From Adhaeribacter aquaticus DSM 16391 (GTDB taxonomy: Bacteria; Bacteroidota; Bacteroidia; Cytophagales; Hymenobacteraceae), in contig NZ_KI421517.1 of the NCBI RefSeq assembly GCF_000473365.1, positions 4,006,001-4,070,000 on the forward strand: 64,000 nt of DNA. Direction: 5' to 3'. This document shows, piece by piece, positions 6,686 through 45,102 of the stretch. Positions within the stretch are counted from its first letter, which is position 1, and every line of letters starts with the position of its first letter. A program made the translations under genes and the position numbers. The notes beneath the pieces are model-generated. The model made no database searches. It saw only the letters and a list, made by a program, of their open reading frames with translations, and was not told where the DNA came from.

Positions 6686-7858
<1,173 letters not shown>

Positions 7859-7940
7859 CCAGAGAAATACCGGCACCCGGTTTCGGACAAAGCTTACCCT
7901 AACGCAAAGTATAATACTAGGTCATTTAAAGCTTAAAATC

Positions 7941-9583
<1,643 letters not shown>

Positions 9584-40250: not shown

Positions 40251-41843
40251 TCAATAGCCTTCCCGGTCGTAAGCATGAACAGCAACATCCTTCGTCGTTT
40301 TATCTTTGGTTTCTTTACCTGCTTTTAATTCAGTCCCATTTTTCGTGTCAAATACTTTAGTTTTTTTCTTTAGTCCTTTAACCCTTGATGTATCAGTTAT
40401 TTTGTCTTCGCCCAATCCGCCATAAATTTCTATTTCGATACCCTTATCCACTTTTCCTTCAATTTCAAATTCATCATCTTCAGCCAACCCATGTAATATA
40501 AGTTTTTTAGTTTCCTGGTGGTTAAATACCCGGTAATAAATACTTCTTGGGTTTTCTTCTTTATCTTCAGGTATAGCGAATACTTCTACCGACGTGGTGT
40601 TATTGTCAATTCTTTTTACAGTAAACATTTCTTGTTCATCGGAGCCAACAATAGTTACTTCCTTTGCCAGGATCTTATAAAAATCTTGTGCCGCCTCCGG
40701 TAGTTGATCTACCCGTTTTTTTAATTTGGAAGAAGTTTTAGCTCCTTCTATTTTTTGAATGGGGTCCGGAAACAAAGAAATTGTTTTTTGTATAACCTCA
40801 TCTGTAATAGAACCTTTCATATCCTCCGCAATTGCAGCCCATTGTTCAGCCGTAACTTCATTTAAAAACCTTTGGTCTAAAAAGCGGGCATTAAAAATCA
40901 ATCCGCTTACATCTTCAATATTATGCCGGAAAGGTTTTAATTTTTGAACCAAAAATTTCCGGCTTACTAGCCAGGGCATGATGCCATCGGCAAAACGGTA
41001 AAATGTTTGATCCCGGTCTTTAGGTACGGGATAAAAAACTTTTGTCTTATTGTCCTTATCGGGATAAATTGCCCAGGTCCACTGACCTTCGTGGCGATCC
41101 CAATCGCCTATTAAAATATCATATAAACGTGCGCGAGCCAAAGCTAATTGATCTACCGAATTTTTATTTGATTTAAAACGGGCCCGTAACATTTCATCAC
41201 TTTCAACCAAATCAGTAGCATTTCCAAATTTTGGTGCCAACGATTTTTTGCCTTCGTATTTTTCTTCCAGCATTACCACCTTGCCCCTGAATTTTTCACT
41301 GAATTCTCCCAAGCCCTGGTAGTTTTTAGGTACATAGTACATTTCAGGATTAGTATAATGAATTTTAGAGGCCTGGGCCAGTGGAGGCAAGGTAAACGCA
41401 GCGTATGGATTACCGGCCGATGTTTGATCCCGCATAATATTGGCCACAAAAGTATTCCGTAAGGATTTAGACAAAGCTAAACTAGGATCTTTATCTAAGG
41501 TTCTTAACGAATAAAGTTTTCCGGCTTTATCTTTTAAAGTTAGACTGGTGGTTTGCATACCTCCCCCTAATTTTACCGGCTCCAGACCACCATGTATTTT
41601 ATGGATATCTATAACTGTTGCTGGCACAGGAGTGGCCCAAACTTGGCGGTAATGCCGGCCCCAAATTATTTCGTGTAACCGGCTTCTTTTATATTGTTTT
41701 CCGGCTGTAACCAAAACAGTATTAGTCGGAGAGGCAGATACGGCCTCATTTTTGGTATAAAGTGCATCCTCTTGAAAAAAATTCTTGCGGGCACAGTTAG
41801 TAAAGAAAATTAGTAAGGTTATACAAAGAAATCTTAGGTACAT
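40251..41843 (-). CDS. Lipoprotein with kinase-like DRH motif (paralogue A)
   Basis: 530 residues with a lipoprotein-type signal (LCITLLIFFTNC, Cys about 17). The body is a Bacteroidota family I know mainly as the N-terminal half of larger proteins ending in a BamA-like barrel; no barrel is present here. Seen: WGRHYRQVWATPV, LRTLDKDPSLAL, LYDILIGDWDRHEGQW (DRH at 249-251) and PVPKDRDQTFYRFADG (DRD at 276-278). The DWDRH plus DRD arrangement resembles the active site of CotH/HipA/FAM20-like kinases (inference). It is divergent from paralogue B with 151 bp between starts. Confidence 0.65.
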   Translation of the reverse strand: MYLRFLCITLLIFFTNCARKNFFQEDALYTKNEAVSASPTNTVLVTAGKQYKRSRLHEIIWGRHYRQVWATPVPATVIDIHKIHGGLEPVKLGGGMQTTSLTLKDKAGKLYSLRTLDKDPSLALSKSLRNTFVANIMRDQTSAGNPYAAFTLPPLAQASKIHYTNPEMYYVPKNYQGLGEFSEKFRGKVVMLEEKYEGKKSLAPKFGNATDLVESDEMLRARFKSNKNSVDQLALARARLYDILIGDWDRHEGQWTWAIYPDKDNKTKVFYPVPKDRDQTFYRFADGIMPWLVSRKFLVQKLKPFRHNIEDVSGLIFNARFLDQRFLNEVTAEQWAAIAEDMKGSITDEVIQKTISLFPDPIQKIEGAKTSSKLKKRVDQLPEAAQDFYKILAKEVTIVGSDEQEMFTVKRIDNNTTSVEVFAIPEDKEENPRSIYYRVFNHQETKKLILHGLAEDDEFEIEGKVDKGIEIEIYGGLGEDKITDTSRVKGLKKKTKVFDTKNGTELKAGKETKDKTTKDVAVHAYDREGY

Positions 41844-41994
41844 ATTTTAATTATATTCTTTTTGTTGTCAGGTTACAAGATCTGACCTTTTTTATAGTTG
41901 AGTAATGATTTACTAAGGGTATTAAACGAAATTTAGAAATTTAAGTATAAGTATTTAACTATATTATTATACGTATAAACGCGTAGGCACTACC

Positions 41995-43596
41995 GTGAAA
42001 AAAATTTTTATATTAATAAGTTTAAGTTTTGCCGGTTTACCTCAATCAAAAGAGTGTCGAGCAGGAGTTTTGGGTCAAGAACACCAGAACAAAGTTTTTC
42101 CTACAGTTAATCCGGATTCTTTAGTAACCGTTACAGCTGGCAAGCATTACCAGCGCAGCAAATTTTACCAGTTATTTTGGGGAAAACATTACCGTGATGT
42201 ATGGGCTACGCCTGTGCAGGCACCAATTCTAAATTTACAGCAAGAAGCAGGAGGACTGACTCCCGTTAAAAAAGGAGGTAGCTTTCAAACCAAAAACCTG
42301 CGGATGGTAAATCCGGAAGGTAAAGAGTTTGTAATTAGATCCATTGATAAAGATCCTTCTAAAGCATTGCCTTCGAAATTACAAAATGGTTTAGTGGGCA
42401 ATTTAATGCGCGACCAAACCAGTGTCATTCATCCGTATGGCGCTTTTATTGTACCTACCTTAGCCCGTGCAGCGGAAATTTATCATACGAACCCTAAGCT
42501 GGTCATTATTCCCGACGATCCAGCTTTAGGTGAATTTCAACAGGAATTTGGCCATATGCTGGCATTAGTGGAAGAAAGGCCGCAGGGGGAAAGGGAGGAA
42601 ATAGAAAGCTTTGGCAATTCTTCCCAGATTATAAGTTCCCGCAAAGCATTTTCTAAAATGGTTGGTTCCGGTTGCTATGCGGTGGATAGCCGCCAATACC
42701 TGAAATCACGGTTGTTTGATATGTGGCTGGGCGATTGGAGCCGGCGCGAAGATCAGTGGCGCTGGAGTACCTTTACCAACGGCAATCAAACTATTTATAA
42801 ACCTATTCCCCGTGATCGCGACCATGCTTTTTTCTTATTTAATGATGGGCTAATTACCTGGTTTACCAGTAAAATAAAAACTAATTACCAAACTTTTGGA
42901 TACCAGATTAAGGATGTAAAAGGATTGAATGGAAGTGCCCGACCAATGGATGAATATTTGTTGGCCATGCTCTCGAAAGAAGATTTTTTAGCGGTAGCGC
43001 AGGAAATGAAGAACCAGCTTTCAGATGCGGTTATTAAAGAAGCGATAGGGGTGTGGCCAGAGAATATTCAGGCCCTGACCGGTAAGGAATTTGAGCAAAA
43101 ATTAATTTCCCGCCGAAACCAAATGCCGCAGGTAGCTGAAAAGTATTATAACTTAATTTCCAAGTATGTAAGTGTAACTGGCTCCGACCGAAAGGATTTA
43201 TTTAAGATTGAACGATTAAACAATCGGGAAACCCGGATTAGTGTACATACTTTGGGAAAAGGGGATTGTGGCGAAATAAAACTAGGGGAACGTATTTTTA
43301 ATACCTCCAAAACAAAAGCGGTATCTATCTACGGCTTTGGGGGCAATGACGAATTTATTATTTCCGGTAAGGTAAAAAACGGAATAAAAGTCCGAATTTA
43401 TGATGGCGAAGGCCAGGATGTTATTAATGACAGCTCACAGGTAAAATCCATCCTGAAGAAAACCCGGATTTACAATTCACCTGATGGGAATACTGTTTCT
43501 GCCGGACCTAAAACGAAAGTAATCAAAAATAAATACCCGCTGGCGCATGAGTACAGCGGAGCGGGCTGGCTGCTTTTGCATAGGCTTCATGATTAA
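41995..43596 (+). CDS. Exported paralogue B with altered kinase-like motif
   Basis: 533 residues, GTG start (no ATG fits the signal MKKIFILISLSFAG). It aligns with paralogue A along its length: FWGKHYRDVWATPV, IRSIDKDPSKALPSKL, LFDMWLGDWSRREDQW and PIPRDRDHAFFLFNDG, ending in GNDEFIISGKVKNGIKVRIYDGEGQD. The motif that reads DRH in A reads SRR here at residues 249-251, so catalysis is probably lost if A is a kinase. It is likely periplasmic or surface exposed. Function unknown. Confidence 0.65.
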   Translation: MKKIFILISLSFAGLPQSKECRAGVLGQEHQNKVFPTVNPDSLVTVTAGKHYQRSKFYQLFWGKHYRDVWATPVQAPILNLQQEAGGLTPVKKGGSFQTKNLRMVNPEGKEFVIRSIDKDPSKALPSKLQNGLVGNLMRDQTSVIHPYGAFIVPTLARAAEIYHTNPKLVIIPDDPALGEFQQEFGHMLALVEERPQGEREEIESFGNSSQIISSRKAFSKMVGSGCYAVDSRQYLKSRLFDMWLGDWSRREDQWRWSTFTNGNQTIYKPIPRDRDHAFFLFNDGLITWFTSKIKTNYQTFGYQIKDVKGLNGSARPMDEYLLAMLSKEDFLAVAQEMKNQLSDAVIKEAIGVWPENIQALTGKEFEQKLISRRNQMPQVAEKYYNLISKYVSVTGSDRKDLFKIERLNNRETRISVHTLGKGDCGEIKLGERIFNTSKTKAVSIYGFGGNDEFIISGKVKNGIKVRIYDGEGQDVINDSSQVKSILKKTRIYNSPDGNTVSAGPKTKVIKNKYPLAHEYSGAGWLLLHRLHD

Positions 43597-43707: not shown

Positions 43708-45102
43708 CTAGAAAATGATAACCTTGTCTTTATGACTGGATCGGAGATAGCCCCGGATAATTTGCTGAACATCTTTATTATCCTTGTAAAACTTAATAGC
43801 ATCTTTAAAATCCTGTAAATTATTGGCCGAGAAGGTTTCATCTATATAACCAAATCCCAGATACCGGTTATTTTCTATAACAACCACTGTTTTTTCATTT
43901 GCCTGCCGCCCTTTGCCTATAATAACAAAATTATCGTACTCAAAACTAAAGGATTCAATGGCCGCATCCACCCGGGCATTGTATTCATCCGGCAATTCTT
44001 TGCCTATACATGCACCTTTACACTGGTGTACTTGGTAATCAAAGCAGGCCCCGTTCGATTTATAAAGTCCACTAAGTTTCTGGCACAAGTTGTATTTGGC
44101 TACTTTATGAAACAAAAAGGCTTTGGATTTAAAATGATTCGGTAAGGCTATGATAGGAGATCGTTCCGTAGATACCTTATCAAAAGAAAGACGTTTGTAC
44201 CCCTTTTCATCCACATCTAAATAAATTCCGGAGCTAAATACGCTTCGGCGCTGCTGCCGGTTATACTGAGGTTTTAAGCGTTTTATTTCGTCAGATTCAA
44301 ATAATAAAGCTACTAATTCACTGCCGGTTAGTTCATAGGTGATATCAGCAATCCGGTTTTTAAATTCAATGGACTTTTTACTCTTATAATCTATGTTGAA
44401 ATGCTGAATAATTCTTTTCCGGATGTTAATGCTTTTGCCTACATAAATTATTTCACCATCGCTATCATAAAAATAATAAACACCCGCTGCATCGGGTAAG
44501 GCATCTACTTGTTCCCTGCTAATTGCCGGAGGAAGCAGAGAGGTTTTAACAGCATTTTTAATGACTTTCTCCTGGGAGGTACTTTCTGCTGTGACAGAAA
44601 TTTCCTGTTTATTTATTTTCAGAAGCTTGTCAAATAAAATGGCAGTGGCTTCAGCATCCCCAATAGCGCGGTGGCGCATTTTTAATTCAATATCAATGCT
44701 CTTGCAAAGTTTGCCCAAGCTGTAAGAAGGTAAGCCTGGTATCAAAGAACGGCTTAGCCGCACCGTACATAAAGTTTTGCGTTGATAATTAAATCCCAGG
44801 TCAGAAAATTCTTTTTTAATAAAGGAATAATCAAATCGGACATTATGGGCAACAAATATTTTCCCATCAGTAAACTGCACAATTTCTTTAGCTACTTCAT
44901 GAAATTTAGGTGCGTCCCTTACCATGGCATCTGTAATACCGGTAAGCTGGGTAATGAAAAAAGGTATAGGTCGTTCCGGATTTATTAATGTGTTGTATTG
45001 ATCAACTATTTTCTCACCATCATGAATAAATATGGCTATTTCCGTAATTCGATCTTGTGAGGGTTGCCCTCCGGTGGTCTCAATATCAATGATAGCGTAC
45101 AA
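43708..45102 (-). CDS. DEDDh exonuclease fused to a GIY-YIG (UvrC/Cho-like) domain
   Basis: 464 residues. Residues 1-170 are a DnaQ-like 3'-5' exonuclease (IIDIETTGG, VAHNVRFDYSFI, HRAIGDAEAT). Residues about 200-285 are a GIY-YIG nuclease (GVYYFYDSDGEIIYVGKSI, QYNRQQRR). Further on, four Cys in the pattern C-x12-C-x7-C-x3-C (ending CFDYQVHQCKGAC) match the cluster region of UvrC. A DNA repair role is likely, with the exonuclease trimming near the incision (inference). The family is known as a polymerase III epsilon-like fusion. Confidence 0.88.
   Translation of the reverse strand: MYAIIDIETTGGQPSQDRITEIAIFIHDGEKIVDQYNTLINPERPIPFFITQLTGITDAMVRDAPKFHEVAKEIVQFTDGKIFVAHNVRFDYSFIKKEFSDLGFNYQRKTLCTVRLSRSLIPGLPSYSLGKLCKSIDIELKMRHRAIGDAEATAILFDKLLKINKQEISVTAESTSQEKVIKNAVKTSLLPPAISREQVDALPDAAGVYYFYDSDGEIIYVGKSINIRKRIIQHFNIDYKSKKSIEFKNRIADITYELTGSELVALLFESDEIKRLKPQYNRQQRRSVFSSGIYLDVDEKGYKRLSFDKVSTERSPIIALPNHFKSKAFLFHKVAKYNLCQKLSGLYKSNGACFDYQVHQCKGACIGKELPDEYNARVDAAIESFSFEYDNFVIIGKGRQANEKTVVVIENNRYLGFGYIDETFSANNLQDFKDAIKFYKDNKDVQQIIRGYLRSSHKDKVIIF

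Follow-up and report, generated by a model that had tools for sequence, protein, structure and literature searches.

Extracytoplasmic protein phosphorylation is already established in animals, through FAM20C, and in spore coats, through CotH. HipA proteins are toxin-antitoxin kinases of the cytosol, and PI4KII proteins are eukaryotic lipid kinases with a DRH-type catalytic loop. CotH has its site of action in the spore coat, beyond the cytoplasm, and its D228Q and D251A variants are reported to be catalytically inactive (PMC7821199). FAM20A lacks one essential catalytic residue, with a catalytic Glu changed to Gln (PMC5413348), and is reported still to bind adenosine triphosphate (ATP) and to activate FAM20C (PMC5413348, PMC4421793). 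Bacterial pseudokinases of other kinds have been described, such as EcpK of Myxococcus (PMC12004946) and a histidine-kinase version of ChrS (PMC9491836). Here, we describe a divergent gene pair, A and B, in a stretch of 64,000 nucleotides from Adhaeribacter aquaticus DSM 16391 (assembly GCF_000473365.1, contig NZ_KI421517.1, positions 4,006,001 to 4,070,000 of the forward strand), the whole of which is called the window. A and B are paralogues (35 to 36% identical), and we hold it slightly better than an even bet, at roughly 0.55, that they form an envelope kinase/pseudokinase pair analogous to FAM20C/FAM20A. Our literature search, which reached few subscription papers and no bioRxiv preprints, found no description of this family or of a kinase/pseudokinase pair of such kind in the Gram-negative envelope.

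In the mechanism that we propose, both proteins would leave the cytoplasm, A as a lipoprotein. A, with its presumed active site kept, would most likely move phosphate, or another nucleotide-derived group, onto a protein, lipid or glycan of the envelope. B, with the presumed nucleotide- and metal-site residues kept and the catalytic Asp gone, would most likely bind A and regulate or scaffold it as FAM20A does FAM20C.

Predicted fold and relation to known kinases

The original prediction, made from the sequence, had likened both proteins to CotH/HipA/FAM20-like kinases, and at the level of the predicted fold this likeness holds. The AlphaFold2 models of A (119 family sequences; predicted local distance difference test score, 94.0; predicted template modeling score, 0.92) and B (84 sequences; 91.5 and 0.91) are both two-lobed kinase folds, with kinase-fold proteins at the top of their match lists. 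Foldseek against the PDB placed the CotH kinase 5jd9 first for A (E = 2.7e-5) and CtkA first for B (E = 5.5e-5), followed by CotH (E = 2.6e-4), with the FAM20-type structure 5yh2 among the further matches. By VIA-align, CotH and PI4KII were tied as the nearest structures for both proteins. For A, the matches were CotH (Z = 14.3; 256 residues, 4.2 Å), PI4KIIbeta (Z = 14.3; 259 residues, 4.7 Å), CtkA (Z = 13.0; 237 residues, 4.3 Å) and HipA (Z = 10.9; 213 residues, 3.9 Å). For B, they were PI4KIIalpha (Z = 14.5; 249 residues, 4.2 Å), CotH (Z = 14.4; 258 residues, 4.3 Å), CtkA (Z = 13.4; 236 residues, 4.8 Å) and Golgi casein kinase (Z = 10.4; 232 residues, 5.5 Å), and the FAM20-type structures 4kqa and 4kqb were also found; a low rank or absence of HipA or FAM20 in these lists excludes nothing. 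The matches span mostly residues 31 to 394 of A and 37 to 390 of B and barely cover the C-terminal beta-domain. By their models, A and B are each an atypical kinase fold followed by this beta-domain. In A, the beta-domain (window 40254-40661, minus strand) contains a GGxGxD-type turn, which presumably recalls RTX-like repeats.

CotH (PF08757; 5jd9 and 5jda) is the best Foldseek match for A and has a GNWD..DYD motif analogous to that of the family, but it differs in that A and B have no Pfam CotH match and only weak profile similarity, and in that a search of the window's own genome with PF08757 gave no match. We know of no CotH with such a lipobox, beta-domain or Omp85 fusion. FAM20C and FAM20A are likewise a secreted atypical kinase and its dead paralogue, and FAM20-type structures are among the matches of B; in contrast, they are animal proteins without a sequence match to the pair, and FAM20A alters a Glu whereas B loses an Asp, so that the analogy is functional only. 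HipA (PF07804) shares the broad fold and a D-x-H catalytic loop, but its profile comparison falls within the range of our controls. PI4KII, the other tied best structural match, has no sequence match to either protein.

At the sequence level, the Pfam scan of A and B gave only noise below the cutoff (ANC1_spectrin in A, CHU_C in B), and the NCBIfam, PHROGs and PADLOC scans gave no match. Rows for PF08757, PF07804 and the FAM20 kinase domain were absent for both proteins from the Pfam scan, where few matches above about 0.1 survive the HMMER filters. Searches of PDB sequences with A or with a 119-row family profile returned nothing meaningful, and the kinase assignment therefore draws on predicted structure and motif register. 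For profile comparisons, we used alignments of 27 CotH and 25 HipA members from the window's phylum, each from 30 loci, and 14 control families from neighboring genes. The CotH profile matches crystal chain 5jd9, the HipA alignment has D-x-H in its catalytic loop, and the two compared with each other at 73.8% probability. In the hhalign comparison, the VDQ..GDWDRH..PKDRDQTF of the family is placed on the GNWD..PYDYDNTF of CotH; against HipA, the E value of 0.076 is inside the control range. These comparisons do not place A and B within the CotH or HipA_C profile, with no Pfam row and with hhalign results that were weak or within the controls. Of the kinship originally proposed, the fold and the motif alignment with CotH are retained, and membership by sequence in CotH, HipA or FAM20 is not established.

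Motif conservation and the Asp-to-Ser change

Codons read directly confirm that A and B share GDW(D/S)R(H/R)xxQW followed by DRD, with DRH at residues 249 to 251 of A opposite SRR in B, as had been claimed. Our family alignment has 173 rows, two of them duplicates of A and B of the window and another a fragment from a frameshifted copy. R239, D242, D247, W248, R250, W255, D276 and D278 are identical in 173/173 rows, K118 in 172 (the fragment has a gap there) and E193 in 172 (one row has Gln). The sharing of the motif by A and B is thus not due to chance. Column 249 has Asp in 125 rows and Ser in 48, with no other residue. All rows that do not belong to the B clade have Asp249, and D278 never varies, so that the conservation on which the original prediction depended is found; K118, D249 and D278 are also invariant in the 47-row alignment of A itself (alignments A6, with 39 rows, and A7, with 47, exclude the L014 fragment and any row sharing 90% or more identity with one retained). 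A therefore has the conserved Lys, catalytic Asp and metal-binding Asp of the kinase-like superfamily, in roles assigned by profile register and position rather than by superposed coordinates. B has Ser for the catalytic Asp and keeps Lys119, E193, R250 and both Asp residues of DRD, the presumed ATP- and metal-site residues.

We compared 51 A, 47 B and 58 long-type rows (156 of the 173), leaving out the two duplicates and 15 rows of C-like proteins, third copies or genome G072, all described below. At the thresholds used, four positions separate A from B: 95, 102, 249 and 253. The long forms side with A at position 249 (Asp in 58/58, as in 51/51 A rows) and mostly at position 95 (47/58 Gly, 10 Lys), and at positions 102 and 253 their commonest residue is that of B. 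Decay of B as a pseudogene was considered and rejected, since the reading frame is intact in the window and most relatives and these four positions are the only consistent differences from A.

In a tree of the 173 rows made by a quick method, with Shimodaira-Hasegawa-like approximate likelihood ratio test support only, all 48 Ser-bearing rows, including the duplicate of B, form one clade (support, 97), and the A-type short proteins and the long forms are two further separate clades. The filter had labeled 49 rows as Ser, but one of them (L100) was a false match with DRH in its aligned motif. The lowest pairwise ratios of nonsynonymous to synonymous substitution (dN/dS) were 0.064 to 0.109 for B and 0.057 to 0.070 for A, in pairs with dS of 0.85 to 1.25.

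These data also bear on the idea that both proteins are enzymes and that B, rather than being dead, catalyzes some other reaction or relies on another residue for catalysis. AMPylases with a kinase fold are known, B keeps the residues listed above, its replacement is always Ser with no scatter of residues, and close B pairs have low dN/dS. In addition, some kinases are reported to place catalytic residues at unconventional positions (PMC5413348). On the other hand, the Asp lost in B corresponds in the alignment to that of GNWD in CotH, whose Asp mutants are reported to be inactive (PMC7821199); the Gly-rich loop of B is altered as well (G95S), and B has been lost in several lineages that retain A. 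On balance, we regard a working B enzyme as unlikely.

Pairing, export and the weight of the evidence

A scan of a genome collection, the only search that extended outside the phylum, confirmed at least 574 relatives among 593 stretches, and the best 80 loci, mostly from Hymenobacteraceae, were kept. To survey pairing, 60 genomes of the window's family were searched with one profile for A and another for B. The counts are among the matches listed, so that weaker copies may have escaped the count; places of short A-like and B-like genes were picked by hand, the six lowest-scoring B places by score and place, and their type was later confirmed by profile. There were 46 B-type places in 45 of the 60 genomes, and 45 of them lay within 3.7 kb of an A (43 with match ends no more than 0.7 kb apart, the others at 2.4 and 3.6 kb), 38 in divergent and 7 in tandem orientation. 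The remaining place is an extra B copy without an adjoining A; its genome also has a pair. A occurred without B in eight genomes, B without A in none, and seven genomes had neither. In stretches from 52 of the 60 genomes (every genome with A or B except that of the window), typed by profile score, DRH was found in 53/53 A-type proteins, one of them the third copy in G072, and SR[R/H] in 45/45 B-type proteins (SRR in 37, SRH in 8). The presumed dead paralogue thus accompanies the presumed active one in 45/45 genomes with B, and the motif split is without exception. Many of the surveyed species are shared with the 80 loci, so that genome and locus counts are not independent. The Asp/Ser split in a neighboring pair is therefore a property of a family of genomes and not of one genome.

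The surroundings of the pair are less constant. The neighbors on the B side in the window recur in 27, 22 and 22 of the 51 loci compared (window included) and in 0 of the 16 Pontibacter loci, which have neighbors of their own (two clusters, present in 16/16 and in no other locus) and B in tandem where it is present. An operon with a conserved third gene is unsupported by these neighbor counts, and a neighbor cluster spanning 31 loci joins to a tiny window reading frame and looks like an artifact of spurious reading frames in GC-rich genomes. B stands beside A in 11 of the 16 Pontibacter loci, in one of which it is frameshifted (L014, 7697-9264); a further locus has a B remnant (L056, about 7595-8188), and in the fetched stretches of four others (L017, L026, L031 and L067) B was not found; A is intact in all six of these loci. 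Taken together, the genomes with A only, the lack of any with B only and the loss of B in Pontibacter show that B depends on A, and not the reverse, in this sample.

The paralogy of A and B could also mean that they are ordinary redundant duplicates, whose nearness was inherited from a tandem duplication and has no functional link. Nearness does follow from duplication, but the pair has been kept in both orientations and in differing gene contexts, and B is never found in a genome without A, which makes this the least probable of the explanations that we considered.

The original prediction also called both proteins exported. For A this is well supported: a crude rule finds a lipobox Cys in 48 of 50 A orthologues, the other two show the Cys by eye, and in those displayed the lipobox is usually followed by A-R or A-K. 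For B of the window the case is weaker, with no lipobox and only a short hydrophobic N terminus, and 30 of 44 B orthologues pass the rule, as do 5/5 third copies and 0/7 C-like proteins.

Several observations weigh against the kinase/pseudokinase pair. The main difficulty is the donor that A would use, as neither the periplasm nor the extracellular space is known to offer a supply of ATP. The hhalign comparison with CotH gave an E value of 0.037 for the 119-row family profile, and one of the 14 unrelated controls did better (0.014). With 173 rows, the comparison (E = 0.021; score, 26.2) rose above all 14 controls (best E, 0.091; highest score, 22.1), but the E value is still weak, and from the control results we do not take a CotH or HipA profile match as proof of membership. 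The median dN/dS in pairs with dS below 1.5 is not low (B, 0.355 in 329 pairs; A, 0.383 in 393 pairs), with maxima of 0.772 for B and 0.814 for A. Saturation and base composition make the medians less reliable and, with the lowest ratios coming from pairs with dS of 0.85 to 1.25, the estimate of selection is rough. Several Pontibacter loci have a broken B or none, so that B is dispensable there. Finally, nearness and co-occurrence are no proof of contact, and the pair may be a retained duplication. Of the active kinase with a dead partner that was first proposed, the predicted folds, the Asp/Ser split, the pairing and the lipobox of A stand; phosphotransfer, ATP binding, the donor and substrate, the inactivity of B, contact between A and B and which of them regulates the other are what we infer.

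Long relatives and features of the locus

The window's genome has five members of the family: A, B, C (a third short protein of 532 residues with a transmembrane-like N terminus), D (1,182 residues) and E (1,261 residues). D and E have a C-terminal Omp85 match, and E has in addition an N-terminal metallophosphoesterase (PF00149) match. Neither domain was matched in A or B, which agrees with the earlier statement that both lack the C-terminal barrel of longer relatives; that a metallophosphoesterase can accompany the long relatives had not been noted. The kinase-like middle region had no Pfam match above the cutoff in any of the five proteins, and NCBIfam gave only sub-cutoff matches in C, D and E, those in D and E at the barrel. 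A member of the domain family was found in 43 of 118 genomes sampled from the phylum, including proteins of about 850 to 960 residues, three of which were scanned and had an Omp85 match without a phosphoesterase match. In total, 8/8 long or mid-sized members scanned had an Omp85 match, and most matches of the phylum sample outside the window's family lie in reading frames of more than 850 residues. In the scans of short, mid-sized and long members, the domain is thus seen in three settings: on its own, joined to a barrel, or flanked by a phosphoesterase and a barrel.

Heinz and Lithgow (2014) described an Omp85 "Metallo" subfamily that the long forms fit, and called its PF00149 domain a metalloprotease; the word "kinase" is absent from the part of that text available to us (PMC4104836). 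D and E share the Omp85 domain with this subfamily and E also shares PF00149, whereas A and B lack both and do not belong to it.

The prevalence of barrel fusions raises the question of whether either protein is an enzyme now. The kinase fold could serve an outer-membrane machine structurally or in ligand binding, as a remnant of Omp85-fused forms, and this agrees with the general expectation that there is no ATP outside the cytoplasm, with the Omp85 counts above and with a degenerate phosphoesterase in one lineage of long forms. However, D249 is fixed in all A and long-type rows compared, and Lys, Glu and DRD are fixed or nearly so, which is hard to explain without catalysis, and we find a purely structural role improbable. 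Returning to A as a kinase and B as its pseudokinase, a wider proposal is conceivable, though we advance it only tentatively: an unnamed extracytoplasmic kinase family in Bacteroidota, in which a lipoprotein kinase would be controlled by a pseudokinase twin not found without it, and fused members would carry a phosphoesterase and a kinase-like domain on one Omp85 barrel protein for reversible outer-membrane phosphorylation. If A is active, the source of the phosphate donor, the modified target and reversal by the Omp85-phosphoesterase fusions become testable questions, as does a function for a domain that is present in over a third of the sampled phylum genomes and to which no Pfam or NCBIfam model gave a name in the proteins scanned. 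The features of the locus are collected in Table 1.

Table 1. Features of the A/B locus in window coordinates
Feature	Position	Strand	Description	Basis
Gene A	40251..41843	-	530-residue exported kinase-like protein; presumed catalytic Asp D249 kept	Open reading frame; AlphaFold model; PDB matches
Gene B	41995..43596	+	533 residues, GTG start; kinase-like paralogue of A; predicted pseudokinase, Ser at presumed catalytic Asp	Open reading frame; AlphaFold model; kinase-fold matches
Intergenic region A/B	41844..41994	.	151 bp between starts, divergent	
A signal peptide and lipobox	41793..41843	-	Residues 1-17, end FTNC	Translation; orthologue lipobox survey
A kinase-like domain	40662..41627	-	About residues 73-394	VIA-align ranges to CotH and PI4KII, mostly 73-393
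A Gly-rich loop GGGMQT	41550..41567	-	Residues 93-98	Gly93 and Gly94 in 172/173 rows; third Gly in 51/51 A rows, Ser in B
A Lys118	41490..41492	-	Candidate ATP-binding Lys	172/173 rows
A catalytic-loop motif GDWDRHEGQW	41079..41108	-	Residues 246-255, including D249	Codons; hhalign to CotH GNWD motif
A DRD motif	41010..41018	-	D276 and D278, candidate metal-binding Asp	Conservation; codons; aligned to CotH DYD
A C-terminal all-beta domain	40254..40661	-	Residues 395-530	DSSP on model; outside most PDB matches
B kinase-like domain	42214..43164	+	About residues 74-390	VIA-align ranges
B Gly-rich loop GGSFQT	42274..42291	+	Third Gly replaced by Ser	Ser in 46/47 B rows, remaining row a gap
B Lys119	42349..42351	+	Kept	Alignment; codons
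B degenerate catalytic-loop motif GDWSRREDQW	42730..42759	+	Residues 246-255 (S249, R251)	Codons; Ser in 47/47 B rows, 45/45 in genome survey
B DRD motif	42814..42822	+	D274 and D276, kept	Alignment; codons

Some of the long forms have a degenerate metallophosphoesterase region (L009 436-3984, which is paralogue D, L053 1-3276, L061 1-3396, L089 670-4359 and L076 1046-4651). None of the motifs GDNxY, GNHD and GHxH was found in them, and D and L089 had no Metallophos match. They may represent a pseudo-phosphatase line that parallels the pseudokinase B. E (L011) has two weak PADLOC rows for PDC-M03A, the better with an E value of 0.0024 over residues 616 to 763, which cover its DWDRH at residue 630. 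Very distant and partial matches to the kinase-like region were seen at G013:C2:216863-217333 and G034:C5:8241-8564 (profile positions 204 to 366 and 257 to 366), in frames of about 700 residues. A third short copy with DRH lies beside the A-B pair in some Hymenobacter loci (L079, L083, L085, L088 and L090, at about 7.5 to 9.3 kb, and L093) and in G072. The sequence of the protein at 43708-45102 of the window, whose cluster spans 27 of the 51 loci compared, suggests a fusion of a DnaQ-like exonuclease and a UvrC/GIY-YIG-like part.

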